A DNA stretch of 20,677 nt. Source: a virus. A program made the position numbers and the translations under genes. The notes under the pieces are model-generated. The model was given only the letters and a program-made list of their open reading frames with translations. It was not told where the DNA came from and did not search any database. This document shows, piece after piece, positions 1 through 20,400 of this stretch (position 1 is its first letter; every line of letters starts with the position of its first letter). The stretch lies in the IMG/VR virus record IMGVR_UViG_3300030060_003948, positions 33,189 to 53,865 of that record. The stretch is one strand, 5' to 3'.

Positions 1-45
1 TGTACTCCTGAAGATATATTTATTAGTTAAAAACTACTCAATGTT

Positions 46-86
46 CTGTTGTACTACTGTTGTAAACAAATGTTAAGACTGTTGTA
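46..86. repeat. Three phased 8-bp direct repeats
   Basis: The octamer CTGTTGTA occurs exactly three times, at 46-53, 57-64 and 79-86. The offsets of 11 and 22 bases are one and two turns of B-DNA, which would put all copies on one face of the helix, as in operators or iterons. ACTACT at 53-58 can also pair with AGTAGT at 86-91. The repeats sit upstream of the first forward gene in a non-coding leader. A protein-binding role is inference. Confidence 0.45.
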
Positions 87-316
87 GTAGTCTAAAGTAG
101 TAACGACCACGGGAATATATATATGTAATATAGTAACGTAATGTAGAATGCTGCAACAAAAACTTTAGGAAAGACTAAATTGCCTTTTTTAGCTCAAAAT
201 ATATTTCGATGGTACCTTACCTTAGTTTTTACACCGATCTAGCCTAGAAAGGGGTGTTTTGCGTTGAAAAGTGCATTTGTAAAAAATTGCCCTAGAATCT
301 GAGTACGTGATATACA
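87..316. other. AT-rich leader with no recognisable gene
   Basis: This stretch lies between the direct repeats and the structured element before the first gene. I see only very short open frames (for example a 12-codon TTG frame near 264) and no convincing conserved protein. No confident sigma-70 promoter could be placed: TTGAAA near 264 and TAGAAT near 294 are too far apart. Early promoters would be expected here from the layout, but I cannot mark them. Confidence 0.5.
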
Positions 317-430
317 CTACCCCGACCCCGTTGAAATTCACGGTGCGCTTCGCTTACCAGGTTGAATTTCTCACGGTCCTGGGGTAGGTTCAACCTTCGG
401 TTGGCCCCTGCTCGCTTGGGCTCGTTGCCC
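317..430 (+). ncRNA. Structured leader element A, three hairpins
   Basis: A long imperfect hairpin spans 317-387. CTACCCC (317-323) pairs with GGGGTAG (381-387), GACC (324-327) with GGTC (375-378), GAAATTCA (333-340) with TGAATTTC (363-370), and the tip is GGT/ACC plus GCG/CGC around 342-358. Two small hairpins follow: CAACC/GGTTG (391-403) and GGGC/GCCC (418-430). GGTTGAA (360-366) could instead pair with TTCAACC (389-395), so two conformations are possible. The element is visibly GC-richer than its surroundings and ends about 40 bases before the first start codon. It could be a leader RNA or a structured DNA site; no known family was recognised. Confidence 0.45.
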
Positions 431-468
431 TAATTAATAAACAATAATAAACATAAAGGAAATTAATT

Positions 469-864
469 ATGTCAAGTTCAAAGAATAATAAATACTGTGA
501 TTTATATAACTATGCAAATGAAAAGCAACAACATAAAGATAAAGTTATCAAAGATAATGCTATTGTAGAAGAATGGGTTAATACCAAAGTAAATGGTAAA
601 CAACAATATAGAAATAGCATAATCATTAACTTTATTGCTGAAGAGGGTAAAGCAATACCTGAAATACTCTCTGTTGATATGCTTAAAGCAATGCAATCTG
701 AACACGATAAACTAATCGTTGAAGAAGGTGTTGCATATAGGAAATCTTATCAGTTCCCTGAACCTATGGAACAAGTTGATGAAGATGAAACTACTACTGT
801 TACTATTGGTGCCAAGTATACGCCAATACGTAAAGGCTTTCGTAGTAATCTATCATTTGGGTAG
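469..864 (+). CDS. Hypothetical protein, 131 aa
   Basis: First forward gene after the structured leader, starting at ATG with AAAGGA a short distance upstream. The product is hydrophilic and lysine/glutamate-rich, has an acidic stretch VDEDETTT near residue 105, and lacks a signal peptide or membrane segment. The middle reads like a small alpha/beta protein. I recognise no family. It is followed within 20 bases by a strong hairpin terminator, so it probably forms its own transcript. That arrangement fits an early-expressed phage protein, for example one acting on the host, but this is guesswork from position. Confidence 0.75.
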   Translation: MSSSKNNKYCDLYNYANEKQQHKDKVIKDNAIVEEWVNTKVNGKQQYRNSIIINFIAEEGKAIPEILSVDMLKAMQSEHDKLIVEEGVAYRKSYQFPEPMEQVDEDETTTVTIGAKYTPIRKGFRSNLSFG

Positions 865-884
865 TATCAACCTAAAGGTTGTAG

Positions 885-912
885 AAAGGGTAGACATCTG
901 TCTATCCTTTTT
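885..912 (+). terminator. Rho-independent terminator
   Basis: AAAGGGTAGACA (885-896) pairs with TGTCTATCCTTT (899-910) with a single G-U pair; the real loop is about four bases. A T-run at 908-912 completes the stem. It lies 21 bases after the stop of the 131-aa gene. A small CAACC/GGTTG hairpin at 869-881 precedes it. Confidence 0.75.
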
Positions 913-987
913 AAACCCACGACAATAGAGCGTTAAGTAAGTCTTTTAGTATACATAAAACAATAATCAATAACTACGGGGGACTAT

Positions 988-1140
988 ATGAATATAGTTA
1001 AAAGTCTCGGTTCAACTGAGCAATTCAACCATTATTTAAAGCAAGACGGCACAATATTATCAGTGCAAAGAACTAAAGAATTAACAATACCACAATCGCT
1101 ATCAGTGGCTATTAAATTGGCAAAGGAGGTAAACAAATGA
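988..1140 (+). CDS. Small hypothetical protein, 50 aa
   Basis: ATG at 988 follows a weak GGGGGA ribosome site, and the frame encodes a 50-residue protein beginning MNIVKSLGSTEQF. Its 3' end holds the AAAGGAGG site of the next gene, and its TGA overlaps the next ATG (ATGA at 1137-1140), the classic arrangement for translational coupling. The C-terminal half (SLSVAIKLAKEVNK) looks like an amphipathic helix. No family recognised. It is the first gene after the terminator at 885-912, so a promoter is expected between 913 and 987, but I could not define one. Confidence 0.65.
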   Translation: MNIVKSLGSTEQFNHYLKQDGTILSVQRTKELTIPQSLSVAIKLAKEVNK

Positions 1141-1364
1141 AGATGAAAGGTTTAGTCAAATTATTTACATTTTTATCTTGTTTAGGCTTTTGGTATTTAA
1201 TATTACCTACCTCATATCTTACCTTTATACTTTGGACAATATTATACATTGTAGTTGGAATACCACTGTATTTAACAGCATTCTACTTACAAGTAATAAT
1301 AGTAAGGACTTTACGCAAAAAGTCTAAATTCTGTCGAAAGCTTATCATCAATCCTCGATACTAG
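1137..1364 (+). CDS. Small membrane protein, 75 aa, two TM segments
   Basis: It overlaps the preceding gene by ATGA and uses the AAAGGAGG site inside it. Residues about 8-32 and 34-56 are strongly hydrophobic (aromatic and Ile/Leu-rich), separated by a short turn, and the C-terminus is basic (RTLRKKSKFCRK). Two transmembrane helices with a cytoplasmic basic tail are likely. No family is recognised. Small early phage membrane proteins often act in superinfection exclusion or host takeover, but nothing in the sequence shows which. Confidence 0.7.
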   Translation: MKMKGLVKLFTFLSCLGFWYLILPTSYLTFILWTILYIVVGIPLYLTAFYLQVIIVRTLRKKSKFCRKLIINPRY

Positions 1365-1452
1365 TGATCCAGACAATAGCCTGTGTCTTAAAACGTGCTA
1401 GCCCTGAGTAAGGCTTAAAACTGCTCAAAATTTCTAAATATTATAAAACTAG
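1361..1452 (+). ncRNA. Structured intergenic element B, possible pseudoknot
   Basis: CTAGT (1361-1365) can pair with ACTAG (1448-1452), which includes the first two bases of the next gene's AGGAGG site. Inside, AGACA (1371-1375) pairs with TGTCT (1384-1388), and AGCC (1400-1403) with GGCT (1412-1415). The loop TGAG (1405-1408) can pair with CTCA (1424-1427), an H-type pseudoknot. Occlusion of the ribosome site is possible, so a cis-regulatory role is plausible but unproven. The outer stem is only 5 bp. Confidence 0.35.
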
Positions 1453-1462
1453 GAGGTCAATA

Positions 1463-1759
1463 GTGGGTAAAATGAAAAGTCTTTTAATGGACTATCAAGA
1501 TTATCAAGGCTATCCAATAGAGATAGACGAAGCAGCATTGTATGATTATCAACAGCAATGCCATGAAGAAGAATTAATGAGACAAGGTGTTATATCAGTC
1601 CCATTAGAGCCAGGAATAGAAGAAGAATCTTATCAACTTTACATGGAGGGTAAGTTATGTGGAGAACAAACAAATACTGCCCTTACAAGTTCAGATACGA
1701 ACTCGAAAGATGGGCAAACAATCGTTGGCCTAAGAAAAAGGCGAAACATGCGAAAATGA
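1463..1759 (+). CDS. Hypothetical protein, 98 aa, GTG start
   Basis: GTG at 1463 sits six bases after AGGAGG (1451-1456); the in-frame ATG at 1472 is a worse fit. The first 64 residues are acidic and tyrosine/glutamine-rich (DYQDYQGYP, DYQQQCHEEEL) and look like real protein. The last third overlaps the next gene in another frame and has a low-complexity, shadow-like composition ending in RLRKRR-type basic residues. No family recognised. Translation would still run to 1759, producing a 103-base overlap with the following gene. Confidence 0.65.
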   Translation: MGKMKSLLMDYQDYQGYPIEIDEAALYDYQQQCHEEELMRQGVISVPLEPGIEEESYQLYMEGKLCGEQTNTALTSSDTNSKDGQTIVGLRKRRNMRK

Positions 1760-1797
1760 GTCGCAAACAGTTATATGCAATCTGGTATAGTCAATAA
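1657..1797 (+). CDS. Small basic protein, 46 aa, overlapping gene
   Basis: ATG at 1657 follows GGAGGG (1645-1650). The frame gives a 46-residue, tryptophan/tyrosine- and lysine-rich protein that ends MSRKQLYAIWYSQ. This C-terminal Q-L-Y-A-I pattern occurs, from memory, in small proteins of marine phages, and it convinces me that this frame is the selected one in the overlap with the 98-aa gene. Charge is strongly positive, so nucleic-acid binding is possible. Function unknown. Confidence 0.65.
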   Translation: MWRTNKYCPYKFRYELERWANNRWPKKKAKHAKMSRKQLYAIWYSQ

Positions 1798-1823
1798 TGG
1801 CTATACTATAAACTGGAGGGTAG

Positions 1824-1991
1824 ATGAAATTAAATAATCGGCAACAAATAGCACTATCAAAAGTTATCAATTATTTATACACAGAAGAGGAAAAGCATTT
1901 TGAAGAATCAAATAGACCAATGAAACACATATTTAAAGAAGTAACAGTATTAAATCAAGCATTAAAAAATAAGAGTGTTATCTCTTACTAG
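1824..1991 (+). CDS. Small hypothetical protein, 55 aa
   Basis: ATG at 1824 follows GGAGGG (1815-1820) and encodes 55 residues starting MKLNNRQQIALSKV. Composition suggests two helices (LNNRQQIALSKVINYLYTEEEKHF and KHIFKEVTVLNQALKNK). The stop codon TAG at 1989-1991 is the first part of the closing stem of structured element C, so ribosomes finishing this gene would disturb that fold. No family recognised. Confidence 0.65.
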   Translation: MKLNNRQQIALSKVINYLYTEEEKHFEESNRPMKHIFKEVTVLNQALKNKSVISY

Positions 1992-2087
1992 TCGCTAATA
2001 TAAGGCAACCACTCAAGGTTTGCCGACCAATCGGGTTTACCCCCGTATACCCAGGGCTTATAACTTTTTAGCGACGGTTATAGGCCC
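1991..2087 (+). ncRNA. Structured element C with predicted pseudoknot
   Basis: Four helices can be drawn. GTCGCTAA (1991-1998) pairs with TTAGCGAC (2068-2075). GGCAACC (2004-2010) pairs with GG-T-TTGCC (2017-2024) with one bulged T. CGGG (2032-2035) pairs with CCCG (2042-2045). GGGCTTATAAC (2054-2064) pairs with GTTATAGGCCC (2077-2087), 11 bp with one G-U. The 3' strand of the first helix lies in the loop of the last, which makes a pseudoknot. Compact helices with a perfect 8-bp pseudoknot are typical of riboswitches, small ribozymes or functional phage RNAs. I could not match it to a known class. Confidence 0.55.
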
Positions 2088-2094
2088 AAACATT

Positions 2095-2177
2095 TAATAG
2101 AGAGGATATTGAAAGGCGAGAAAGATACCGTCCTAGGTGCGAGAGTATACACTAACGAGGGTCAAGCCTCTCTATTA
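2095..2177 (+). ncRNA. Structured element D with 11-bp closing stem
   Basis: TAATAGAGAGG (2095-2105) is perfectly complementary to CCTCTCTATTA (2167-2177), enclosing 61 bases. The interior carries two similar segments, GCGAGAAAGATAC (2116-2128) and GCGAGAGTATAC (2139-2150). The element follows element C by only eight bases and precedes the small membrane-protein gene at 2220. A longer TTG-initiated frame for that gene would run through it, but the perfect stem and the strong ribosome site at 2207 favour RNA here. Confidence 0.5.
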
Positions 2178-2219
2178 CTATTAACTACATATATAAATAT
2201 CATAATAAAGGAGAAAACA

Positions 2220-2318
2220 ATGGATTTTTTTATGAATTTACCTAAAAATGTTGTATGGATACTGTTATTCTTAATGGGAGCAGTATTTTGGTATTTTATA
2301 GTTAAATATTTATTCTAG
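2220..2318 (+). CDS. Single-pass membrane microprotein, 32 aa
   Basis: ATG at 2220 lies six bases after AAAGGAG (2207-2213). The 32-residue product (start MDFFMNLPK) is one hydrophobic helix from about residue 10 to 32, rich in Val/Ile/Leu/Phe/Trp, with almost no soluble part. An in-frame TTG at 2109 would add 37 residues but has a poor ribosome site and lies in element D, so I prefer 2220. The stop overlaps the AGGAGG site of the radical SAM gene. Function unknown. Confidence 0.65.
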   Translation: MDFFMNLPKNVVWILLFLMGAVFWYFIVKYLF

Positions 2319-2332
2319 GAGGTAGATATGAA

Positions 2333-3193
2333 GTGAAATACGTAACACGTAAAGCAAAAATAATCAGAGAATCGGGTAGATCATCTGATTTTATTACACC
2401 ATCATTTGGTTTTGGCTGTGTATACAGATGTAATTACTGTTATATGCGTAGACATGTAAGTAGAGGGCTAACAATAGCCAAGAATACACAAGAACTAATA
2501 GATGTTATAGATAACCATGTAAAATCATTACAATGGCCTAAAGCCCCTAATCAGACTCATACAAATTTTTATACTTATGACTTTAGTTGTAACGAAGACT
2601 ATGTAAGGCACATAGAGTTTCATGATTGGCAACTACTATTTAATTATTTTAAAAATAGTGACAGAGCCTTTGGCACTGCAGCAACTAAATATGTTAACAG
2701 ACATTTATTAACATTTAATCCTAATAGAAAAATACGTATAAGATTTAGTCTAATGCCTCAACATTTATCAGACAAGTTAGAGCCTGGTACTAGCAAAATA
2801 ATAGAAAGAATAAAAGCAATAAACGAGTTCTACGATGCAGGCTATGATGTTCATATTAATTATAGTCCCGTAATCGTATATGATAACTGGCTCAACGACT
2901 ATCAAGATCTGTTTAGACTTGTTAGTGAAAATGTTAGAAACGACATTAAAAAAGACGTTCTAGCAGAATGTATCTTCTTAACGCACAATGCGAGTATGCA
3001 TGAACAGAATGTATCAAAGAATACGAGGGGTGAAGAGTATTTGTGGACTCCCCATAATCAGGAGGAAAAAGTGTCACAGTATGGTGGACACAATATACGA
3101 TACAACTGGTTTTACAAGAAGAAATACATAGAGCAGTTTAAATACATGCATACTAATGGTGTACCTTGGAATAAAATAAGGTATATCTTTTAA
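2333..3193 (+). CDS. Radical SAM protein, spore photoproduct lyase-like
   Basis: A 286-aa protein with C29-x3-C33-x2-C36 in the context TPSFGFGCVYRCNYCYMRRH, the radical S-adenosylmethionine 4Fe-4S motif. The surrounding TPS-G-C and CYMRRH pattern and the downstream TYDFSCNEDY segment resemble the spore photoproduct lyase family seen in phages. The family founder repairs spore thymine dimers; the substrate here is unknown, with DNA photolesion repair a reasonable inference. GTG at 2333 is used because the ATG at 2328 reads ATG-AAG-TGA and stops after two codons. The AGGAGG at 2317-2322 is 10 bases before GTG. Confidence 0.75.
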   Translation: MKYVTRKAKIIRESGRSSDFITPSFGFGCVYRCNYCYMRRHVSRGLTIAKNTQELIDVIDNHVKSLQWPKAPNQTHTNFYTYDFSCNEDYVRHIEFHDWQLLFNYFKNSDRAFGTAATKYVNRHLLTFNPNRKIRIRFSLMPQHLSDKLEPGTSKIIERIKAINEFYDAGYDVHINYSPVIVYDNWLNDYQDLFRLVSENVRNDIKKDVLAECIFLTHNASMHEQNVSKNTRGEEYLWTPHNQEEKVSQYGGHNIRYNWFYKKKYIEQFKYMHTNGVPWNKIRYIF

Positions 3194-3338
3194 TGCAGCC
3201 CAGTGAGTCTCTCGTCAGTATGAAACAGGACTACCGAGCATGGGCTTAAATCTGGCTGGCATACCTAACAGAGAGGCGGATAGAAGCACTGCAGTGGCGT
3301 CTGATAGACTAACTATCTATGTCAAACTAAAGTATGCC
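3194..3338 (+). ncRNA. Structured element E with competing pairings
   Basis: GTCTCTC (3207-3213) pairs with GAGAGGC (3271-3277; one G-U). Within it, GTATG (3218-3222) can pair with CATAC (3260-3264). GGCATAC (3258-3264) is also perfectly complementary to GTATGCC (3332-3338), so the same bases have two exclusive partners. GATAG/CTATC (3303-3317) forms a further hairpin. Upstream TGCAG (3194-3198) can pair with CTGCA (3289-3293). The element fills the gap between the radical SAM gene and the 65-aa gene and ends just before its ribosome site, so a switch-like leader is possible. Confidence 0.4.
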
Positions 3339-3365
3339 AAAAATTAAAGATAAGGAGGAAAGATA

Positions 3366-3563
3366 ATGGTTCAAGGTGATAATGTTTTTTATTATATGAA
3401 AAATGTCAAGTTAGTTCCAGACACATATGGTATGACAATAGAAATCAAAATGTTAAGTGCCCATAAGGGTGACGGTACATTTATTAAAAACCTAAAAATA
3501 GACGAAGACGCCTTAAATATTATAAAAAATGGCGTAATAGTTTACAATCAAAAGGAGGAATAA
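3366..3563 (+). CDS. Hypothetical protein, 65 aa
   Basis: ATG at 3366 follows a strong AAGGAGG site. The 65 residues alternate hydrophobic and polar positions (NVFYYMKNVKLVPD, MTIEIKMLSA), suggesting a small beta-rich fold. No family recognised. The gene ends only two bases before the next start, with that gene's AAAGGAGG site inside its 3' end, so the two are co-transcribed and probably co-translated. Confidence 0.7.
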   Translation: MVQGDNVFYYMKNVKLVPDTYGMTIEIKMLSAHKGDGTFIKNLKIDEDALNIIKNGVIVYNQKEE

Positions 3564-3565
3564 GC

Positions 3566-4264
3566 ATGCCTAACTGGTGTTACAACGAAATGACAATATC
3601 TGCAGAAGGTGAAGATGCAGAAAAACAATTAGAAGAGTTTAAAGAAATTAGCATAAAAGTAGAAGAAAAAGAGAATGACAATGGAGCTAAATACACTGAA
3701 GAAAACTTAACATTTCAAGGTGTAGTCCCAAGACCATTATCTTTAAATATTACATCTGGCAGTTCTGTTAGTGATGCTATATCATACCTGAAACATTTAG
3801 ACGGAAATAGTGATGAAATTAAAGGCATGTTTAATAGAACTTGGATGACTGAAGGCCCTGACAAACTATTTGACAAAGAATCATCTGAAAGCGATAAAAT
3901 TAAAGCAATCGCAAAATGGTTAGAGGATAGTTTAGAAGTAAATGATTTAACTGAAGCTAGAGTTGCCATAGAAAATGTTAAAAAGCATGGACATACAGAC
4001 TGGTATTGGTGGTCAGTAGAGAATTGGGGAACAAAATGGGATGCAGTAACAACTAACTATGATTACGATCATCAATGGTTGCAAGTATGTTTTGACACTG
4101 CATGGTCACCCCCAGAACCATGGATACAAGAAGTGTCAAAGAAATTTCCTTTACTGGAAATAACAGTAAGAGTAACAGAAGAAAGTGATGCATATATGGG
4201 TTATATTTGTGCAATTAACGGCGAAATCAATTGCAGTTTTGCAGAACCACATATGCCTAATTAA
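3566..4264 (+). CDS. DUF1281/Api92-like ferredoxin-fold protein
   Basis: A 232-aa protein with the hallmarks of the YubB/DUF1281/Api92-like family: MPNWCYN at the N-terminus, FQGVVPRP near residue 50, a central helical insert, then WGTKWDA (about 150-156) and a FDTAWSPPEPW motif (about 172-182). Members occur on phages and plasmids; the C-terminal domain is described as ferredoxin-like and the molecular role is unknown. It lies directly upstream of the ubiquitin-like modifier gene, 21 bases apart, on the same strand. Whether it belongs to that system or is just a neighbour cannot be told. Confidence 0.75.
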   Translation: MPNWCYNEMTISAEGEDAEKQLEEFKEISIKVEEKENDNGAKYTEENLTFQGVVPRPLSLNITSGSSVSDAISYLKHLDGNSDEIKGMFNRTWMTEGPDKLFDKESSESDKIKAIAKWLEDSLEVNDLTEARVAIENVKKHGHTDWYWWSVENWGTKWDAVTTNYDYDHQWLQVCFDTAWSPPEPWIQEVSKKFPLLEITVRVTEESDAYMGYICAINGEINCSFAEPHMPN

Positions 4265-4285
4265 AACTAAAGAAAAGGAGGCTAT

Positions 4286-4525
4286 ATGCCAACAGCTCAA
4301 GGAGTAAACGTAGAAGTATCATCATACACAAGAGGTGGAACATTTGAATCTGGTAGTTTTGTAAAATTAGCAGATGTTCTTAGAGAATATGCAGTAGACC
4401 AAGGTGAAGCAATTATAGAAGTAACAGGTGAAGACGGTGAAGAAAGAAAAGTCACTGCTGCAATGAACCTGCAAGAAGGTGATACTATAGTAATTATGAA
4501 AGCCAAAAACAAATCAGGTAGATAA
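4286..4525 (+). CDS. ThiS/MoaD-like ubiquitin-like modifier
   Basis: A 79-aa protein with AAAAGGAGG before its ATG. The layout matches a beta-grasp ThiS/MoaD/ubiquitin-like fold: an N-terminal strand (NVEVSSYT), a glycine-containing hairpin, a helix (KLADVLREYAV, about 27-37), a strand pair with a turn (IIEVTGEDGEERKV), and the diagnostic LQEGDTIVIM before a short tail. The tail ends K-S-G-R, not Gly-Gly; removal of the last Arg would expose Gly78. It is followed by E2-like, JAB and E1-like genes, which is the main reason to call it a conjugated modifier and not a sulfur carrier. Confidence 0.7.
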   Translation: MPTAQGVNVEVSSYTRGGTFESGSFVKLADVLREYAVDQGEAIIEVTGEDGEERKVTAAMNLQEGDTIVIMKAKNKSGR

Positions 4526-4546
4526 GTCGGCTTTTTAAAATAGAGA

Positions 4547-4629
4547 AGGGGGCAATAACTGGTCCTGTAAGTCGAAGAGCCTCATGGGCAAGTCCCGTGG
4601 ACGAACGCAAAGGAATATGTGAGCCCCCT
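4547..4629 (+). ncRNA. Structured element F inside the ubiquitin-like cassette
   Basis: AGGGGGC (4547-4553) pairs perfectly with GCCCCCT (4623-4629). Inside, CATGGG (4583-4588) pairs with CCCGTG (4594-4599; one G-U) over a 5-base loop, and GTC (4571-4573) can pair with GAC (4600-4602). The 3' side contains AACGCAAAGGAA (4604-4615), nearly identical to AACGCAAGGGAA in element H. It lies between the modifier and E2-like genes, just before the AAGGAGG site of the latter. It could tune their relative expression. No known class matched. Confidence 0.45.
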
Positions 4630-4649
4630 ACTCACAACAAGGAGGTTCT

Positions 4650-6011
4650 ATGAACGAAACTGAACAACTATGGTGCGATTTATTAGAAGAATGGCACAGT
4701 AATACTAGTGGTGCAAATGAGCCAGAAATGAGTTTAGAGAATCAAGCCAAATATCTTTCTAAAAAATACCCAATTAAAGTAACTACTGTAAAAAAAGCTC
4801 GTTATGATAGTAGTAACGAAGAGTCAATATCAGTAGATGAAGACAGAGCATTGGTATGTTTAAAGAAAGTTATAGTCAAATATAGACCACACCTCCATAT
4901 GGGAGAGTATTGGCTTGATGTGGATTTTAGCAATGGTGTTCAAAACTACTCTTTCTATAATTTACAAGAGTTAGAATCAGAAACAATGGCACTGTATGCC
5001 CAACATCCTCATATAAACAATGGTAAACCATGCTTAGGAACTTATCAAGCTGACCTAGGCACAGCATTTGTTGCAGCTAATTATATACAATTTATGTCGT
5101 TAATAAGAGCATTCTTAGGAACATACACAGGTAATGATACATATTTTAGAGGTACACATTTTAAAACAATAGAATTAAAATGTCAATTACATAGTGTAGA
5201 ACAAATTAATGATATATTTAGTGAAGAAGCAGCAAACTCAGGAATAGATGCTTATAGTGTAGCATCAGATCCAATGAGATGGAACTGGCCTAAAAATTTA
5301 ACAGCTTTTAATACTATAACAATTACAGGTCAAGAACCACAATTACTACAGGCATATTTTAGAGTTAAAGAATTTCCATTTTTACATCAAAGGTATAATG
5401 GGAATTTGTATGAATATGCTAATAGTGTGACAAATAAAATACTTGGATACATATCAATTGCACATCATATAGGTGAATTAAGCCTAGTACAGTCTTTTGA
5501 ATTTGTAAGGGTATTTTTATTAACATGTAAAGCACATTACAACGGAGAAATGGATGAAGAAACAAGTAGAAAACTAGAGAAATTAGCAAGTGATATATAT
5601 ACTGCTCAACAAACTGGTAAAGTTTCTTTAAATCCTAGATATTCTGTTTCATTAGATAATGAAAATAGAGACGAGATTACTAATCTTAACACATTAACAA
5701 GAAATCATATGCGTGAAGATCCTAATCAGTTTCTAAAAGAATTAAAATGGGCAGGTGATAAATTAACAAACTTTGTTGTATTGCTAAGAAAACAAGCGCC
5801 ACACAAAGCAGCTCAAAACTACTTAATAACTCTTAAAAATTCAGTAGATGTAGATACTATTGAACTAAGATATAAAAAAGTAAGAAAGTTTGCATGTAGG
5901 TTGGCATTACAACAAGTGGAAAGAGACAAAAGGAGGTTCATAAATGAACTTAATAAATCAGAAGTTAATAATTCCTTCGACGATTTGGGACAAGGTACTT
6001 TATTTTCTTAA
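4650..6011 (+). CDS. E2-like ubiquitin-conjugating protein with helical extension
   Basis: A 453-aa protein starting at ATG after AAGGAGG. Residues about 75-165 look like a prokaryotic E2/UBC domain: strands around MGEYWLDVDF and VQNYSFYN, then H119-P-H-I-N-N-G-K-P-C128-L-G, equivalent to the E2 HPN...G..CL active site, with C128 as the predicted thioester cysteine. Residues about 170-453 are a long, mostly helical extension of unknown function. The protein ends in QGTLFS, which fits the QxxLF sliding-clamp-binding pattern. It overlaps the JAB gene by 68 bases. A role in transferring the upstream modifier is inferred from the family and context. Confidence 0.72.
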   Translation: MNETEQLWCDLLEEWHSNTSGANEPEMSLENQAKYLSKKYPIKVTTVKKARYDSSNEESISVDEDRALVCLKKVIVKYRPHLHMGEYWLDVDFSNGVQNYSFYNLQELESETMALYAQHPHINNGKPCLGTYQADLGTAFVAANYIQFMSLIRAFLGTYTGNDTYFRGTHFKTIELKCQLHSVEQINDIFSEEAANSGIDAYSVASDPMRWNWPKNLTAFNTITITGQEPQLLQAYFRVKEFPFLHQRYNGNLYEYANSVTNKILGYISIAHHIGELSLVQSFEFVRVFLLTCKAHYNGEMDEETSRKLEKLASDIYTAQQTGKVSLNPRYSVSLDNENRDEITNLNTLTRNHMREDPNQFLKELKWAGDKLTNFVVLLRKQAPHKAAQNYLITLKNSVDVDTIELRYKKVRKFACRLALQQVERDKRRFINELNKSEVNNSFDDLGQGTLFS

Positions 6012-6792
6012 AAAGTTTCCAAGTTTAGAATGGTCAGGACCAGCATGGTACTCACATGAGAAAGATGAAAATGGTTTTCCAACTGAAGTAAAGTTAGAAT
6101 ACTTTCATCCATTACATTTAGGTACAGCAAGTGAAACAGATTGGGACGGCAAAGAACTAATTAAAATATATAAGCCTTTACGAAAAGAATTTCCTGAAAT
6201 AGGTAAATCTTGGGTTCAAGGCAATATACACTCACATCATAGCATGGGAGCATTCTTTAGTGGCACAGATATACAGCAATGTGAAGACGGCGCTAATGAA
6301 AATTTTTATTATTCATTAGTAGTGTCAACTAAGCCTGGAAAAGAAGTGCATTTTGGTGTGTCATACCCCGATCAGTTTGGGAATATACATGTGCTTGAAT
6401 TTGAAGATATAGAAATAGAATCTATAGAAAATACAGATGACGAATGGGTAAAACAAGCAAAGTATATTAATAAAAACAGAACAAAAGTTACCCCTCAACT
6501 ATACACGAGAAAACATAATTCTTACTATAAAGAACAGGGGACTTTATTTGGTGTAACAAATGCGGAACAAAACCCCCAAGACACCAAACAAGACAGGTAC
6601 GAAGAATGGATGGATGTAATGTCATTCAACAATTCATTTACTGGTGAAGTAGAGGAGTTAGGATTTGCACAATGGGATGCATACGACACACTTATGCTTG
6701 ACTATGAAAAAGGTAGGATAAAGAAAAACAAGTTAAAAAAAGAACTTAAAAAAATAGGAGTAGATGAGCATGGACACCCGATACCTTCGTAA
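5944..6792 (+). CDS. JAMM/JAB-domain metallopeptidase
   Basis: A 282-aa protein starting at ATG 5944 with AGGAGG inside the E2-like gene. It has an intact JAMM zinc signature: H96-S-H98-x7-S106-x2-D109, with E29 (SLEWSGPAWY) as the probable catalytic glutamate. Such enzymes cleave ubiquitin-like proteins from targets or trim their C-termini; here trimming the modifier's terminal Arg would be the simplest use. The region after about residue 165 is an extra tail containing EQGTLFG (about 197-203), a second QxxLF clamp-like motif matching the end of the E2-like protein. It overlaps the E1-like gene by 23 bases. Confidence 0.82.
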   Translation: MNLINQKLIIPSTIWDKVLYFLKKFPSLEWSGPAWYSHEKDENGFPTEVKLEYFHPLHLGTASETDWDGKELIKIYKPLRKEFPEIGKSWVQGNIHSHHSMGAFFSGTDIQQCEDGANENFYYSLVVSTKPGKEVHFGVSYPDQFGNIHVLEFEDIEIESIENTDDEWVKQAKYINKNRTKVTPQLYTRKHNSYYKEQGTLFGVTNAEQNPQDTKQDRYEEWMDVMSFNNSFTGEVEELGFAQWDAYDTLMLDYEKGRIKKNKLKKELKKIGVDEHGHPIPS

Positions 6793-7450
6793 CCAAGACA
6801 TTATCGATCAATCAAGATTAGATAAGATAACAGTAATAGGAGCTGGTGGTATAGGTTCTGCATTACTACAAAACGCTGCAATAATGGGATTTAAAGAAAT
6901 AACCGTCTGGGACCCTGATATGTTAGAGGAACATAATTTGTCCACAACATCATGGCCAGAATGCTACTTAAATCAACCAAAAGTACATGCAGCAAATAAG
7001 ACATGTAAAAATCTTAATAAAAAGGTTAAAATAAATCTTAGAGAAGTTTTCTGGGAAACTGGAATGCCATTAGAAAACAAAGTATTCTTAACGCCTGATA
7101 ATATGGAATGTAGGCTTGCAGTATACAATCAATGGAAAGAAAACCCAGACAGAGAGTTCTTACTTGACATGAGAATGGGTGCATTGGGTTTTGAAATAAT
7201 AACTGTGACCAGAGAGTCCGATTATTTCATGGAATCCTATGCCCCAAGTTCCGCAATACCCGACGACCCCTGTACAGCAAAACACACAATATTTTGTGGT
7301 AGTTTAGCAGCATCATATGGCCTAGCACAAGCATTTAATGTCTTGCAAAATAGGATTTATTATGCGTACATTTGGGGGTCGTTAGGTCCTGTTAGTTTAC
7401 GTAGAGAGCATCTCGTTAAACCACAGATAATTAATAAACTTGCTGTATAA
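6770..7450 (+). CDS. ThiF/E1-like adenylating enzyme
   Basis: A 226-aa protein with the Rossmann-type E1 fold: an N-terminal RY-x-R helix, ITVIGAGGIGS (GAGGIGS about 24-30), WDPD (D48, D50), HNL (N56), a lysine in QPKVHAA (K71), and PDN....R (D110, N111, R115). C168 in DDPCTAKH is a candidate catalytic cysteine. The usual N-L-x-R after the ATP loop reads N-L-S-T-T, so that arginine is missing. ATG 6770 is chosen because AGGAG (6756-6760) is nine bases away; ATG 6764 leaves only three. It would activate the modifier's C-terminal glycine and pass it to the E2-like protein. Confidence 0.78.
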   Translation: MDTRYLRNQDIIDQSRLDKITVIGAGGIGSALLQNAAIMGFKEITVWDPDMLEEHNLSTTSWPECYLNQPKVHAANKTCKNLNKKVKINLREVFWETGMPLENKVFLTPDNMECRLAVYNQWKENPDREFLLDMRMGALGFEIITVTRESDYFMESYAPSSAIPDDPCTAKHTIFCGSLAASYGLAQAFNVLQNRIYYAYIWGSLGPVSLRREHLVKPQIINKLAV

Positions 7451-7514
7451 CGCAGCAGTAATCAGAGATATATATCCCTAAATTTACGTCTAGTAGTTAG
7501 GGATATTTGTCTCT
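7441..7514 (+). promoter_or_regulatory. Hairpin pair after the E1-like gene (element G)
   Basis: TGCTG (7441-7445) pairs with CAGCA (7453-7457) across the E1 stop codon. A longer hairpin follows: AGAGA (7464-7468)/TCTCT (7510-7514) and ATATCCCTAA (7472-7481)/TTAGGGATAT (7497-7506), 15 bp in total with a 3x3 internal loop. The bases after it (TTAAAATA) are not a proper U-tract, so it is either a weak terminator or an mRNA-stability or processing element between the ubiquitin-like and recombination modules. Confidence 0.5.
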
Positions 7515-7529
7515 TAAAATAGGAGTCGT

Positions 7530-8393
7530 ATGTTAAAAGTAAATAAAATAAGTACCGATTGGTCCGATGATTTGCCAGGTGGAATAACTTGGTTTTTTAT
7601 TGGTCAGCCTAAAACAGGTAAAACTACTCAAGCATCAAAATGGTCACCAAAAGGCAGTGAAGGTTGTCTAGTTATAGACACAGATTTAGGTGCAGATTTT
7701 GTAGATGCTGCAAATGTAGTTACTTGTTGTGGTTTGAATCCTCCAACAAGAGTACAAGAAAAAGATGGTGTAAAAGTTACTAAAAATGGTCAATCAGTTA
7801 TAGAGATAGTTCCAACAAATGAACGTGGATTTTACTATAGAGGTGGACCAGAAAAAGGTAATCCTATGCATGTTTATTCATTAGCAGAAATATTAGCTGA
7901 TTTAATGAAAAACTGGCATGAATATTCTTATGATACTATAGTTATAGATACTATAGATCAGGTTAATTCATGGATTGAAGATGTCGTTAAAATTGATTTA
8001 GGCATTCAAAATATGGGTGACGGGAATTGGGGTGCAGATTGGGCTGCAGCTAAGAGAAAAAATGCAGATATTGTAAAAAAACTGCAAGATTTCTTAAAAA
8101 AGAAAGGTGGAAACTTAATACTAATATCACATGCTAAGCAAACAGCTATGACTGATGATAAAGCACAATTAGCTCCATCTTTACCTAGTGGTTTAGGTAG
8201 AACATTATGTGCTAAAGCAGATGTAATCGGATATGCTACTGTTAATAAGTCAACCCAAGAATATGAAGTATCATTTGAAGGTTATGACGAGAGAATGGTC
8301 GGTTCAAGACTAGCACCATTAGCAAATAAAGCTTTACCATTCGATTACGAAACAATAATAAATGAAATAAAATCCTATAAGGAGGAAAAATAA
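7530..8393 (+). CDS. Sak4-like RecA-fold recombination ATPase
   Basis: A 287-aa RecA/AAA-type ATPase with Walker A GQPKTGKTT (25-33), a Walker B IVID (137-140) in YDTIVIDTID, and a KKKGGNLILISH strand typical of the sensor region. Size and arrangement fit phage Sak4-type single-strand annealing recombinases. It begins at ATG after AGGAG and is followed with no gap by the 196-aa gene, whose ribosome site lies in its 3' end. That pairing of Sak4 with an ssDNA-binding protein is common in phage recombination modules. Role in homologous recombination or replication repair is by family. Confidence 0.78.
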   Translation: MLKVNKISTDWSDDLPGGITWFFIGQPKTGKTTQASKWSPKGSEGCLVIDTDLGADFVDAANVVTCCGLNPPTRVQEKDGVKVTKNGQSVIEIVPTNERGFYYRGGPEKGNPMHVYSLAEILADLMKNWHEYSYDTIVIDTIDQVNSWIEDVVKIDLGIQNMGDGNWGADWAAAKRKNADIVKKLQDFLKKKGGNLILISHAKQTAMTDDKAQLAPSLPSGLGRTLCAKADVIGYATVNKSTQEYEVSFEGYDERMVGSRLAPLANKALPFDYETIINEIKSYKEEK

Positions 8394-14378: not shown

Positions 14379-14495
14379 TCATTTCTTTTTTTTAACTACG
14401 TAAGTATATTTTTTTTGACCATAGAATACTGGGACTGAAGTAGATGACCTAGTCCAATAATCTTTAGGAATCTCTATTATCTTCTTTTGCTGCAT
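14379..14495 (-). CDS. Nested microprotein, 38 aa
   Basis: Reverse-strand frame ATG 14495 to TGA 14379, overlapping the last 32 bases of the giant ORF in a different frame. It encodes MQQKKIIEIPKDYWTRSSTS followed by VPVFYGQKKYTYVVKKKK. The mix of aromatic, proline and alternating hydrophobic residues looks like real protein. The hairpin at 14343-14371 lies eight bases after its stop, so it would be the last gene of the reverse operon. Its ribosome site is weak (GATAAAG), which suggests coupling to the upstream giant gene. Confidence 0.5.
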   Translation of the reverse strand: MQQKKIIEIPKDYWTRSSTSVPVFYGQKKYTYVVKKKK

Positions 14496-17400
14496 TATTT
14501 GCTTTATCTGCCTTTTTAATTTCTCTAGCTATTTGTATATAAGGTATTCCTGTTCCTTTTTCTATAGTATAGTAAGGATTTTCCATAACTCCTGTAACAT
14601 CTCTTGCCATTCTTCCGAATGGGAACATTGTCCACATATAATAGTCTGTTAGCCTACTATAATCATTTGTTACCATAGAATTAAACAGGGCTGGAGCCAA
14701 CCGCAAACCTGGCGGAGTAACCATTTGGAGTGGAGCTAGTGCAGTTGGCCAAACCCCGAAAAATGCTCTATCTCTTTCAACTTCATCACCAAAGATCCAA
14801 TCAGCAGTATCTTGAAACCAAGAATAAGGCTGTGGCATTGCTGTTTCAAATAAAGAGTAAGCGAATATATTTGCCATACCTAAAACAAACATATCAGTAC
14901 TAGTTTGTCTTTTAAGTCTTTCAAATTCTGGAGTACCACGTCTAAATCCATGTAACTTAGCTTCTCTGTATACATCATTTCTAAATCTTACAGAGTTCCA
15001 AGCCCAAGTTTGGAAACGTGTCATAACTTTACCTAATGCTGTAGCACTAAATGCTGGTCTATATGGAGCAGAATATAAGAACTGTGTAGCCTGTACACCT
15101 TTTTTAGCCATTTCTATTAAAAACGGGTCATTTAAGCCCATATTAGCATGACCATAAATCTCCCTAGCTTGTAAATAGTGTGCAGCAAATGCATCTCTTC
15201 TCAATGCTCTTTCAGGATAACGCATAAACCAAGCAGCATTCTGGAACATTGCTTCAGTAATTTGATGCTTTTTAGCTAGTGAAAGTAATGTTTCGTCCTT
15301 GACCATAGGGTCTTTCTTTAAAACTTTTTCAGCATCCATAAAGAATCTTTTATATTTACCAGACTTAAAGTTTGGATTTAAACCTGCCTCATAAAGAACA
15401 AAGTTGGGAACAACTCCGTGACTAATGGCCCAAGCTTCAATATCTTTTTTAGTAGACCAATCAGATGCTTTTCCAGCTATATTAGTTCTCCAGTATTCTA
15501 CATTTCTAGCATTTCTCCAGTTACGCCATCCAGTAGATTGTATTGTATGCATTTGTCCACCAAATACGTTACCAGTAGCCGACTTAGGGTGAGCAAGTAG
15601 TGTAGCCATTTGATATTTAGCTTCTAAGTTAGACCAATGTCTTATATCCATTTCATCTACACCTTGTAAATCAGTAGGTAAAGACGGATCTTCCTTCATA
15701 CCAACAGTTTTTCTAATTCTATTTACCATATCTTTTACATGATTATCAGCAAACCAACTATAAGGTGTCCCTTTAACTTTCATTAGTTTCGCATCCGCAC
15801 CAGTAAGCCAAGACTCGGGTAGTTTAGAAGGAAAACCCATAGCTCTAGATATATAATCATAAATATAGTTATTCCAAGCAAACGCTTGTTGTGGGTCTTT
15901 CCATTCTGCTAATGCTTTTTTGTTAAAGTTAGATAACATTTTTTTAGATAGTATCTGCCCTATCTGCCTATGATAAGTATCTATTAAATTCTTTTGATAT
16001 ATATCCCAAGCACCTAGGTCTCTATTCCATCCTGGAAGATGTATGTTTCTTGACATCATATTACCAGAAATAGGGTCTTTTTCAAGTGCTCTCATATGAT
16101 CGCCTTTTCTTTTATTAGCAATCTCATTTAAGGCACCTCTAATCATACCATCTTCAGCTACGTCATTAACAATCCAGTCTCCTGTCATAGACTTATATCT
16201 TAAAATTAATTTAGCAATTTCTTGCTCTCTTTGTTCATCAGGAATACCTGTTTGTTTTTTAAGTTTAGCAATAGCTGCTTCAATTGCTCGTTTTGCAACT
16301 GATTTGTTTTGTATAAAGTGTGGATGATACTCAGTAGATTTAAACTGTCTAGTTCTACCATACTCTGCTTTACCTAAGTTTTTAGCAAGTTCTAAATACA
16401 TGTCTTTTTCTGCTTTAGTTTGTGCCATATCTCGCATTTCTAAAACATTTTCAATTTGTATAGACCTAGATATTTTTCTTAAATTATCTAAACCAAACCT
16501 AATGTCAAGAGGTTTTCCTGACTTTAAATTTCTCATTATATCATCAATAAATTTTTCGCCTTTAATTTTAGGCAGCTTAGTATTACCAAACCAGTATTGA
16601 ACCTTACCCTTTTTAGTTTCTAAATATTTATTAATAGGATTGTCAACAGAATTGTCAATTTCATGTTTTCCAGTTCTTCTATTGTATCTATAATTAGATC
16701 CTGCTATCCAGGTATAAGTTTCTGCAGCTCTTTCAGTTAAGACTTTATTTATATTTTTTGCAATAGTTTCACCATTTTCTCTATAAGTTCCACCTTTTTT
16801 GCGAACAGCAAATATATTTTTAGATGTGTTTTTCCAATCAGCTATTTCTTCAGCTTCTTTTAAATTATCTTGATAAACCTTTAAATCTATACGATATGCT
16901 TGATCTTTTTTATTTGCATTTGCGCTTTCAAAAGATGCCAAGTCACGTCTAGCAGTAACAACTTCAGCAATATGTTGTCCCATACCATCAGGTAAAGACT
17001 CATATCCAGTTTGATCTCTAAGAGTTTGCTCTAATAAGTTTTTCTCATCCTCATCCATTTTAATAGCTAAAGCTTCTGCTTTACCAAGAACATATTGTAT
17101 ATTCTCTATAGCATGTGTAGGTCTACCAACATTACCACGACGCCACTCACCTTTAAAGTTTTGGAATCGGCCTTCCTGTGTAAATATATCAAAATCTTTA
17201 ACCATCATTTCTCTAGAAACTGTTTTAGGAAAAAGCATCCAGTGACGCTCTGCTAGTTTTAATATATTATCTTTTGTTAAAGAGCCGTCACGTACGAAAA
17301 CGGTACCACTGCGCATATCTTTAAAGAAATTATTTACAACACGATAATCCTCAACACCCATAGCGTCAAAGTTTTTAGCAACCAAAGACCTGGTGATTTG

Positions 17401-20400
17401 GTTTAATTTATTAGTATTACCTATAGATTTACCATAGTATGATATATGCCCAATAAGTTCATCAACCATCTTGCGTTCAAAACTAGACAATGAAGTATCC
17501 CCAACACGCTTAAGTCTTTCACGACTAGCATAAAGACCTTCGCTATCAGACTCTAATGGATCTTTAGGAGCAATATCAACTAACTCTCCCGCTTTATTAT
17601 TTCCATCCAATGCTTTGCTATAATCTACATCTTTTAACTGAACATTATCTCTATAGTCAAATTGTTCGCTATATTTCTTTAAAAAATCTCTAACGGCCCT
17701 ATCATTAACATACTTAGATGACATTCCAGTCTTTTCAAATAATGTTTCACTACCACTTAATCTAATTTGTCTTATAAGAGGATTAACTAATTGCTTGACA
17801 TTAGCATTTAAACTATTGTAATAATCGTAATTAATTAAGTCTTGCGCTTTGTCAAACGTAGATAACAGCATAGTATCAACTAAATAAGACTCTGCATCAC
17901 TTAATACTCTTGTTTTTTGCTCACCTTTAGAATCTTTACCCATTCCAAAATAATTATCTAATTTAAAGTTTTTTATTCTATTGTCAATTCTTTGTTGATT
18001 GCTATATGCTAACTCTTTATTTTTTAAGTTAAATACCTTTCTCATGCTAAAGTTTTCAAAAGAGGCATCATCAATAATACTTTCACCTTTTTCTGCTTCA
18101 TATGCATTAATTATAGCCCTAGCTCTATCACTTCTAGCCATTTTCTTAGTATCAGAAACAAAATTAGCAGCAGAACGTATAAAGTCATCAGAAACACCTG
18201 CTTTTTTAGCATTATTTATAGCATCTAGCAACTGTAAAGCAGATGCACGATCCATTCCATCGTTTTGTATAAAGTCTGTTGATTGTCTGTAGGCTCTATC
18301 AATCATTTCACTTCTATAAGTAAGCATATTAGCCATAGCTTGGTCGTATTTTGTTTGATTAAAAACACCATTGTCTATAAAATACTTTTTATTTTTTTGA
18401 TCAAAAGGTGTACTTCTAGCTTTAAATGTTAGAGTATTAAAAAAGGTTTTACCTTTTAAGCCTGAGAAAAAATTGTCATACATTTTAAAGTCTTGCAACA
18501 TTTCTCTTCTAACTTCAGGTTTGAATAATTCTGCATCTATTGCACGCATTGACAATTGACTCTCTGGAGACTTAAAGCTGAATCTACCTAGTAAACCTCC
18601 AACAACTTTCTTGCCATTAGCATCCATTCTATAAGAATCATTAAGCATTTTTAATTCACCAGCTATATTTTTATATTCATCATATCTATTTAGCAGCGCT
18701 TCTTTATCTATTCTTCCTAAAATATCATCAGAATAGTCTAATGGTTCTAATTCCTTAACCATTTTACCAAGCATATTACCTTTTTGATTATCATTTAATA
18801 AATGTATTTTGCTAGCAAACTCTTGTATTTCATGAGAATAAAATCTTCTATTCTTATCATAGTTTCTAGAAAAATAACCTCTATTGAAACCTTGGAATAT
18901 TTTAACTAAGCCTTGCTTAGAATGATAGTAAGGTGTAAAACTATTTTTAGCAGCGTCTGAATTAAAGTCTAATTCAAATAAAGAATGATAAGCAACATCA
19001 TAAAATTTTTGAGCACCAACTAAACCAAGTTCATCAAGCGGATCAGAACCAAAAGCAATTTGAGACCTAAACAATTCCCTAGAATAATTTAAAGAATCAT
19101 CGTCTAATCTAGGCTTAACATAAGCAACATGTTCTTTATTTTTACCCCAAACAAGCATTTCTCTAGTATCTTCTTTATATTGTTTCTTTTTATAATCAGA
19201 AAGTTTTTCATATTTATCTACTTCAATATATTTACCGTTCTTATCTACATACCTTTTAACAGTATTAAACTTCATAGCATCATAAGCAGCGTTTAGTATT
19301 TGTTTACTAACAACAGCAGGCCCAAGCTGATCACGACCATCAACTGCTTTGTTTGCTATATCTAATCTACCTTCAGGGGTAAACTTTCCTATGAAAGACT
19401 TGTAAGCATCTGACTTATTGCCAGTAGTAGCATCGTTAGTATAAGTAAATAAATCTTGCCAAGTAACATTTTTACCAGCTTTAATTTTATTTAACACTTG
19501 CTTATCATGTGAATCTTTAGGATTTAGTATATCTTGTAGTATTTCTAAACCTTTTTTAGATATAGGAGCTTCCTTATTATCTGCTATTTTTAAAGTTTCA
19601 GGGTCTCTAAACTCATATTTATTTTGATGGTACATTTTTCTATACTCTGGCTTCATACCAAAAAGAACAAAAGCTTTATCACCATCAAGGTCAGCACCTC
19701 CTAGAGCTCTCATAGTTCTAGGATGAAATACAGCCCCATGACCCTTTATACCTGTAAACCCTGCAAAGGCTAATTCATGTGCACCAGATATAGAGTCCAT
19801 AGGAACACGTAGAGAAATAGTTTTAAAAAAGTCTTTTACTTTATCGTTATGCCTATAATCTTTCCATAACTTTCCTAATTTCATTCTTTTACCACCAGCA
19901 ACTAAATTGCTTACATCATATTCTACATCCATATATAAATCGTCTAAGTAAAATAACTGGTCTGGATTTTCAACACCATAGGTTTCTTTTAAGTATTTTC
20001 TATCTTTCATAATACCTTTTCTACCTTTAGTCATATCCATATTCATGTCTTTAAACTTAGGGTCAATACGCATCCACGGATCGTAACCACGCATTCTAGT
20101 AGATATACTATAATCCCATTTAGGTCTAATAATTTTATTAACTACAAAATTCTTCATAGCTGCCTGGAGATAGTTTCTAACATCTTTGTGTAAGAAAACT
20201 GCTAAATCAGGATATATCTCCATCATTCTATTGATAGAAGAAGTAAATGTCTTAGCCTCTGCTATATTTTCTAAATATTCTTTAGAAGATAATTCACCAG
20301 ACTCATAGTCTGCTGTAAGATTCTCAATATTAGACCTTAATACTTTTTGATACAGCTTAGCTACAAAATCAGGATGGTTGTTGTTTTTAATTGCATCAAC

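Follow-up and report, generated by a model that had tools for sequence, protein, structure and literature searches.

The window analyzed here, a 20,677-base stretch from a virus record of 53.9 kb, carries near its start a 55-aa open reading frame (ORF; 1824 to 1991, plus strand) and, after a gap, a 32-aa hydrophobic ORF (MDFFMNLPKN..., 2220 to 2318, plus strand). The gap opens with a 97-nt element at 1991 to 2087, referred to here as element C (W for the window's own copy in comparisons). Beyond these lie a spore-photoproduct-lyase-like radical SAM protein at 2333 to 3193 (Pfam SPL, 83 bits), for which viral contigs contain at least 80 relatives, and a possible ubiquitin-like conjugation set at 4286 to 7450. 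The members of the latter are a 79-aa protein, a 453-aa protein with HPHINNGKPCLG that is E2-like by eye and has no match in Pfam, and JAB-like and ThiF/E1-like proteins. Part of a giant protein occupies 14464 to 20637 on the minus strand; its open frames in relatives run to 2871 to 3473 aa.

Element C has the form of an H-type pseudoknot that holds a conserved core of two hairpins in loop 1, all on the plus strand. It shares its first base with the TAG stop codon of the 55-aa gene (1989 to 1991), of which this base is the last, so that it begins in the stop codon as the first-pass annotation had it. From there, the 5′ strand of the pseudoknot stem (S1a, GTCGCTAA, 1991 to 1998) is exactly complementary, in 8 of 8 positions, to S1b (TTAGCGAC, 2068 to 2075), and S1b sits in the 12-nt loop of an 11-bp hairpin, S2, whose strands S2a (GGGCTTATAAC, 2054 to 2064) and S2b (GTTATAGGCCC, 2077 to 2087) pair in all 11 positions, one of them U-G. 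This crossing arrangement, which can be read directly from the sequence, is present base for base as first described. Within loop 1, the hairpin P2 (GGCAACC-ACTCAA-GGTTTGCC, 2004 to 2024) pairs 2004 to 2010 with 2017 to 2024 with one bulge and is supported. It is followed at 2025 to 2053 by the conserved GACCAATC and a second hairpin around GGG..CCCCC..ACCC (about 2033 to 2052), the exact pairing of which is ambiguous: RNAalifold places GGG/CCC within 2033 to 2044, while the covariance model pairs 2033 to 2035 with 2050 to 2052. Thus, both of the intervening hairpins claimed earlier are there, the second with more than one possible pairing; the description of a nested order of four helices was loose, since P2, the second hairpin, and S2 follow one another in a row, with S1 crossing S2.

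The linkers of the pseudoknot are short. L2 (2065 to 2067) is U-rich, UUU in the window and 1 to 6 nt in the family, and L3 (2076) is 1 to 2 nt in all 10 elements compared, so that S1b runs almost straight into S2b. Judging from these loop lengths, S1b probably stacks almost directly on S2b, with L2 spanning the deep groove of S1, a path that is geometrically feasible, as in kissing loops. After S2b comes an A-rich tail (2088 to 2095; AAA(C/U)A or close to it in most relatives) with no U-tract. In general, the family layout from 5′ to 3′ is S1a, an A/U-rich joining segment J of 5 to 15 nt, P2 with an AnnCAA-like loop, the conserved GACCAAUC, the GGG..CCCCC..ACCC hairpin, S2a, L2, S1b, L3, S2b, and the tail. 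Crossing helices as strong as S1 and S2 arose in none of 1,000 dinucleotide shuffles of 1981 to 2108, bearing out the earlier judgment that such a pseudoknot was unlikely by chance; together with the covariation described below, this rules out a chance origin. Folded without the pseudoknot, the element gives z = -3.3, and 1 of 200 shuffles was equally good.

Pattern searches and a covariance model (R1) place element C in 12 virus records, the window included. The 80 loci of the neighboring radical-SAM/SPL-like protein contained one close copy only, in the near-identical record L002. In IMG/VR, a 15-base core pattern returned 32 stretches, among them the new true relatives L085 and L087 (L086 is an already known record); an 18-base pattern returned 6, all true, with L223, L224, and L225 new; a 17-base pattern returned 11, of which 9 were true, adding L226, L227, L229, and L230; and a wider pattern returned 24, with 9 true and none new. 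L267, whose core is shortened and changed, came from a locus retrieved for another reason. R1 found no further copy among 194 sources (the window and loci) except for a weak match in L020 (1387 to 1449, E = 0.013), and no additional copy in 100 loci obtained nearly all with the frame E pattern described below; of 100 whole records, 92 were silent, and the 8 matches were all previously known elements. The L020 match looks like a distant relation of element C; there, 1387 to 1475 would form a mirrored pseudoknot, with pairing between the hairpin loop and a strand that lies downstream of it. A search with the 55-aa upstream protein matched solely in the near-identical record, and blastn of window positions 1 to 8000 and of element C against 50,697 named phage records returned nothing. 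The core 17-mer does occur in 17 bacterial genome contigs, none of which has element C around it (profile E = 0.001 or worse, in the core only), so a bacterial RNA is rejected. With one copy per record, the family is so far confined to a narrow group of uncultured marine phages.

The strongest evidence for the pseudoknot comes from these relatives. We compared 10 of the 12 records, omitting L002, whose element is 99% identical to that of W, and L223, which is truncated by a contig end; L226 and L229 are nearly the same, and each is counted. With helix boundaries set by hand, S1 pairs in 8, 8, 7, 8, 7, 7, 7, 8, 7, and 7 of 8 positions, compared to a mean of 3.64 of 8 when S1a is set against the S1b of another element, and S2 is fully paired in 10 of 10. 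Almost no sequence is retained in either helix, which can be of almost any sequence provided that it pairs. Between two and four kinds of standard pair occur at every one of S1 positions 1 to 7, and position 8 frequently lacks a pair. In a model-based alignment (A3), 93.6% of 251 cells are paired, versus 26 to 48% when partners are slid, and all 11 pairs of S2 show changes on both sides, these being all such pairs in A3. None of 500 shuffles of A3 reached any of five measures; the shuffles ignore relatedness, while the slid controls keep it. A3 was fitted to a structure that includes S2 and leaves S1 unpaired, and S1 is therefore the independent test. P2 is preserved mainly through G-U variants at its inner pairs, and the second hairpin, which can be drawn in two ways, has no covariation.

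The covariation check proposed in the first-pass annotation thus gave a clear outcome: S1 and S2 are both retained by compensatory changes in homologs, as expected of a conserved structured RNA, rather than broken without compensation. The pseudoknot is real, and a functional structured RNA is strongly supported. On the sense strand, G-U pairs make up 11 of 102 S2 cells (boundaries again set by hand), which points to a sense RNA and rules out a DNA palindrome or an antisense RNA. The core (GGUUUGCCGACCAAU... and the C-rich hairpin) is nearly invariant, and GGUUUGCCGACCAA is almost identical across elements whose helices have no sequence in common, with the changed core of L267 as the exception. 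Because most homologs were found by exact core matches, the search itself accounts for part of this invariance; no search pattern contained the helices.

Element C is a new, apparently uncatalogued family of pseudoknotted RNAs. No Rfam 15 family matches it in window positions 1 to 4700, at gathering level or at E up to 5; the sole match in that region is snoU36a, far below the cutoff and on the other strand, at 1008 to 1092. No description of element C or its companion elements was found in open-license PMC listings, and one may still be in print elsewhere. Like other H-type pseudoknots with a structured loop 1, it has two crossing helices, short L2 and L3, and plausible coaxial stacking, but it differs in having two conserved hairpins in loop 1 and a core with no Rfam match. 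The motifs manA, wcaG, PhotoRC-II, and Ocean-V (as listed in PMC2864571), which are structured RNAs from marine phages or from marine metagenomes, are comparable in kind, but their Rfam models gave no match to element C; Ocean-VI stands in that list without an Rfam number and is thus outside the Rfam comparison. GOLLD (RF02032), too, is a structured phage RNA with pseudoknots and is present in two phages that bear element C; it is, however, approximately 400 to 800 nt long and described as forming a nanocage (PMC12286853), whereas element C has 97 nt and gave no RF02032 match.

What the 10 elements share in their surroundings is a place rather than a gene (with hand-set helix boundaries for the tails and for L085 and L224). 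Counted from the end of the preceding stop codon, the first base of S1a is at -1 in W, -2 in L230, +1 in L225, L227, and L267, +4 in L229, +5 in L226, and +20 in L087. In L085 and L224, bases 6 to 8 of S1a are the TAA stop that closes an open frame of 75 or 83 codons; these frames resemble each other in sequence, and neither is listed in a standard-start search. In all but L087, therefore, the distance from the end of the stop codon to the start of the element is between -8 and +5 nt (9 of 10 elements). The gene that ends there belongs to the 55-aa family in W, L087, L225, L226, and L229; in L227 and L267 it is a 59- or 61-aa ORF, in L230 a 47-aa ORF, and in L085 and L224 the 75/83-codon frame, so element C has no obligate link to the 55-aa gene. 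Downstream, the gene is for a 32-aa MDF(F/L) protein (homologs of the window's ORF follow element C in L225, L226, L229, and L230), an MxCLKCF protein, or an MGFDISG protein. Directly after element C there may be another structured module (module D in W, L085, and L227; a tmRNA-like domain in L224; other structures in L087 and L225) or the gene itself (L226, L229, L230, and L267). Element C thus keeps one genomic neighborhood and serves no fixed gene, which rules out a cis-regulator of a single gene. An intrinsic, Rho-independent terminator is likewise rejected: a U-tract after S2b is absent in all 10 elements, and a terminator scan found no terminator-like site at S2.

The first-pass annotation had named ligand-binding RNAs, ribozymes, and nuclease-blocking elements as the classes to consider. 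The functional structured RNA common to these is strongly supported by covariation. Among the three, overlap or near contact with a stop codon in 9 of 10 elements, at the end of a coding region where a 3′ element that blocks exonucleases would act, and the inconstant downstream gene speak for nuclease blocking. We consider it possible, with a probability of roughly 0.4, that element C is an intercistronic 3′-end element that abuts the stop codon, blocks 3′-to-5′ decay, and guards the upstream cistron. It would be made within a rightward early mRNA, the sense strand being supported by covariation, including the G-U pairs. Because element C starts at the stop codon of whichever gene lies upstream, a terminating ribosome would cover S1a, and we imagine that the knot closes once the ribosome departs. 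After cleavage or arrest of transcription downstream, the knot would resist 3′-to-5′ exonucleases and keep the upstream cistron alive, acting as a local insulator in a polycistronic message. In L224, the tmRNA-type tRNA-like domain 10 nt after element C is a plausible RNase P substrate, and a cut there would leave the knot terminal. The xrRNAs of RNA viruses are a partial parallel in that they are compact pseudoknots just past a coding region, but they stop 5′-to-3′ enzymes in eukaryotes and have another topology; their sequence relation to element C was compared via Rfam.

Some findings fit poorly with a block to decay. One copy per record in so narrow a group, unrelated structures in the other gaps, and the 20-nt spacing in L087 are among them. 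What weighs most against a purely mechanical role is a core conserved beyond the need of a mere exonuclease block, although the search patterns favored intact cores; such conservation suits specific binding or catalysis. The nearest rival to the decay block is a docking core, in which the invariant segment would be the binding site for a protein of phage or host, or for the ribosome as it departs from the stop codon, with the pseudoknot serving only to keep that segment in shape. The near identity of GGUUUGCCGACCAA amid unrelated helices is consistent with docking, at a level inflated by the core-pattern searches (L267, found otherwise, differs), and the presence of tmRNA-type domains and GOLLD in relatives is in keeping with RNAs that target the host machinery. 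Against it, Rfam gives no match, and we regard docking as rather unlikely.

Catalysis seems improbable. A self-cleaving ribozyme of a new fold could separate the two cistrons, and element C resembles small self-cleaving ribozymes such as pistol in its size, its pseudoknot, and a core that is invariant and mostly internal. However, the helix order is unlike that of HDV-like, twister, and pistol ribozymes, the consensus differs from that of pistol, and even E up to 5 brought no Rfam match. Slightly more doubtful still is a pause, termination, or antitermination signal, read by the host RNA polymerase or by the giant phage protein. The intergenic position would suit it, and GGADxDGD is invariant in 13 of 13 sequences of the giant protein, a motif that we take to be reminiscent of that of the two-barrel RNA polymerases of crAss-like phages; however, the giant protein is a putative polymerase only, with no polymerase support from Pfam, and element C has no U-tract and a core conserved beyond what such a signal needs. 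Least probable is a metabolite-sensing riboswitch, for despite a conserved core inside variable helices and alternative pairings of the GGG/CCCCC segment, the downstream genes form no constant class, no terminator or Shine-Dalgarno-masking platform is seen, and a structured copy is present in 0 of the 17 bacterial contigs with the core 17-mer.

Whichever of these applies, with the decay block as our preferred reading, element C has company. Starting 10 nt after it in L224 (656 to 735, minus strand) is the tRNA-like domain of a tmRNA without the mRNA part, scoring 49.6 bits against a cutoff of 47. A second such domain, in L203 (minus strand, reverse-complement position 2386, 81 nt), was identified by motif only and is not listed by Rfam at gathering level. 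The domains are 80 to 81 nt long, and both retain G3-U70 while the acceptor stem covaries; G3-U70 is the alanine identity element. In these phages, then, a host RNA, the tmRNA, appears from sequence to have been reduced to its tRNA-like end. GOLLD was found in 5 of 50 records searched, in 3 of them above the cutoff, and 2 of the 5 (L224 and L087) bear element C; records G063, G079, G083, and G069 are among those with GOLLD. In L224, it lies at 1768 to 2176 on the minus strand, a place corresponding to 1365 to 1462 of the window. RF02032 had no match in the window's own record, in a search in which no control genome matched; the same model matched elsewhere.

Two other modules recur as frames around variable inserts. 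Frame D (outer stem, a UUGA..GGCGAG / CUAACGAGGGUCAA core, and a variable insert; 2096 to 2176, plus strand) directly follows element C in some relatives only. Frame E (outer stem, AAUAACUGGUCCU..., insert, ...AAGGAAUAUGUGAG) lies at 4543 to 4633, with its insert at 4567 to 4609. Among distinct elements collected, with duplicates merged, there are 112 copies of frame E and 26 of frame D; the set includes loci retrieved with the E-frame pattern, which overrepresents E by construction, and the motif list allowed at most one mismatch, so that divergent frames were missed. The outer stem of E is paired in all 54 distinct flank pairs, among which 18 different 5-bp stems occur; that of D pairs fully at a simple offset in 8 of 14, and a better alignment is needed. 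Inserts match between D and E in 12 cases, over 17 to 35 bases at 96 to 100% identity, for example, the E insert of the window with a D insert of L227 (5047 to 5100); L006, L060, L030, L039, and L190 are other loci of D-E insert sharing or replacement. Nearly identical phages can differ at the insert: E flanks are 1.00 and 0.97 identical in L007/L033, 0.92 and 0.95 in the window/L002, and 0.99 and 0.95 in L014/L023, and the inserts 0.54, 0.54, and 0.60, against a mean of 0.50 and up to 0.63 for shuffled inserts, in 9 pairs chosen from 15 loci as syntenic looking. From sequence, it is as if the inner hairpins were swapped like cassettes in sockets, between frames and between nearly identical phages.

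The window has two more conserved modules, A (3198 to 3245; stem-GUGAGUCUCNCGUCAGUAUGAAAYAGGACUACCGAGCA-stem) and B (3253 to 3340; GGCAUACCUAACAG...GUAUGCC), which in relatives occur separately or in another order. In L076, L077, and L079, an intergenic pseudoknot of similar layout (L077, 2037 to 2179) has GCGGTGATGG/CCGTCACCGT crossing AGGGTAGTA/TACTACCCT. A survey found pseudoknots in 10 of 384 intergenic stretches and 2 in one shuffle set; homologous copies are included, and we do not take this as evidence. Folding z-scores of intergenic stretches are uneven, several being not unusually stable (z = 0.4 for 3194 to 3365), so stability alone would have missed these RNAs.

We tentatively envision a modular RNA system, in which early gaps are filled with interchangeable frames (C, A, B, D, E, the tmRNA-derived tRNA-like domain, and GOLLD) and frames may serve as sockets for swapped hairpins, giving rapidly diversifying RNAs, such as decoys, barcodes, or counterdefense RNAs. 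A pseudoknot first spotted by eye in a single sequence has proved to be maintained by strong covariation across divergent phages, and the RNA family that it represents is new, has a defined core, and can be taken directly into probing and structural studies. More broadly, many structured RNAs that no catalogue lists sit at the gene borders of these uncultured marine phages; cassette-like exchange of hairpins, or a tmRNA cut to its tRNA-like end, would either one be a testable new use of RNA by phages.
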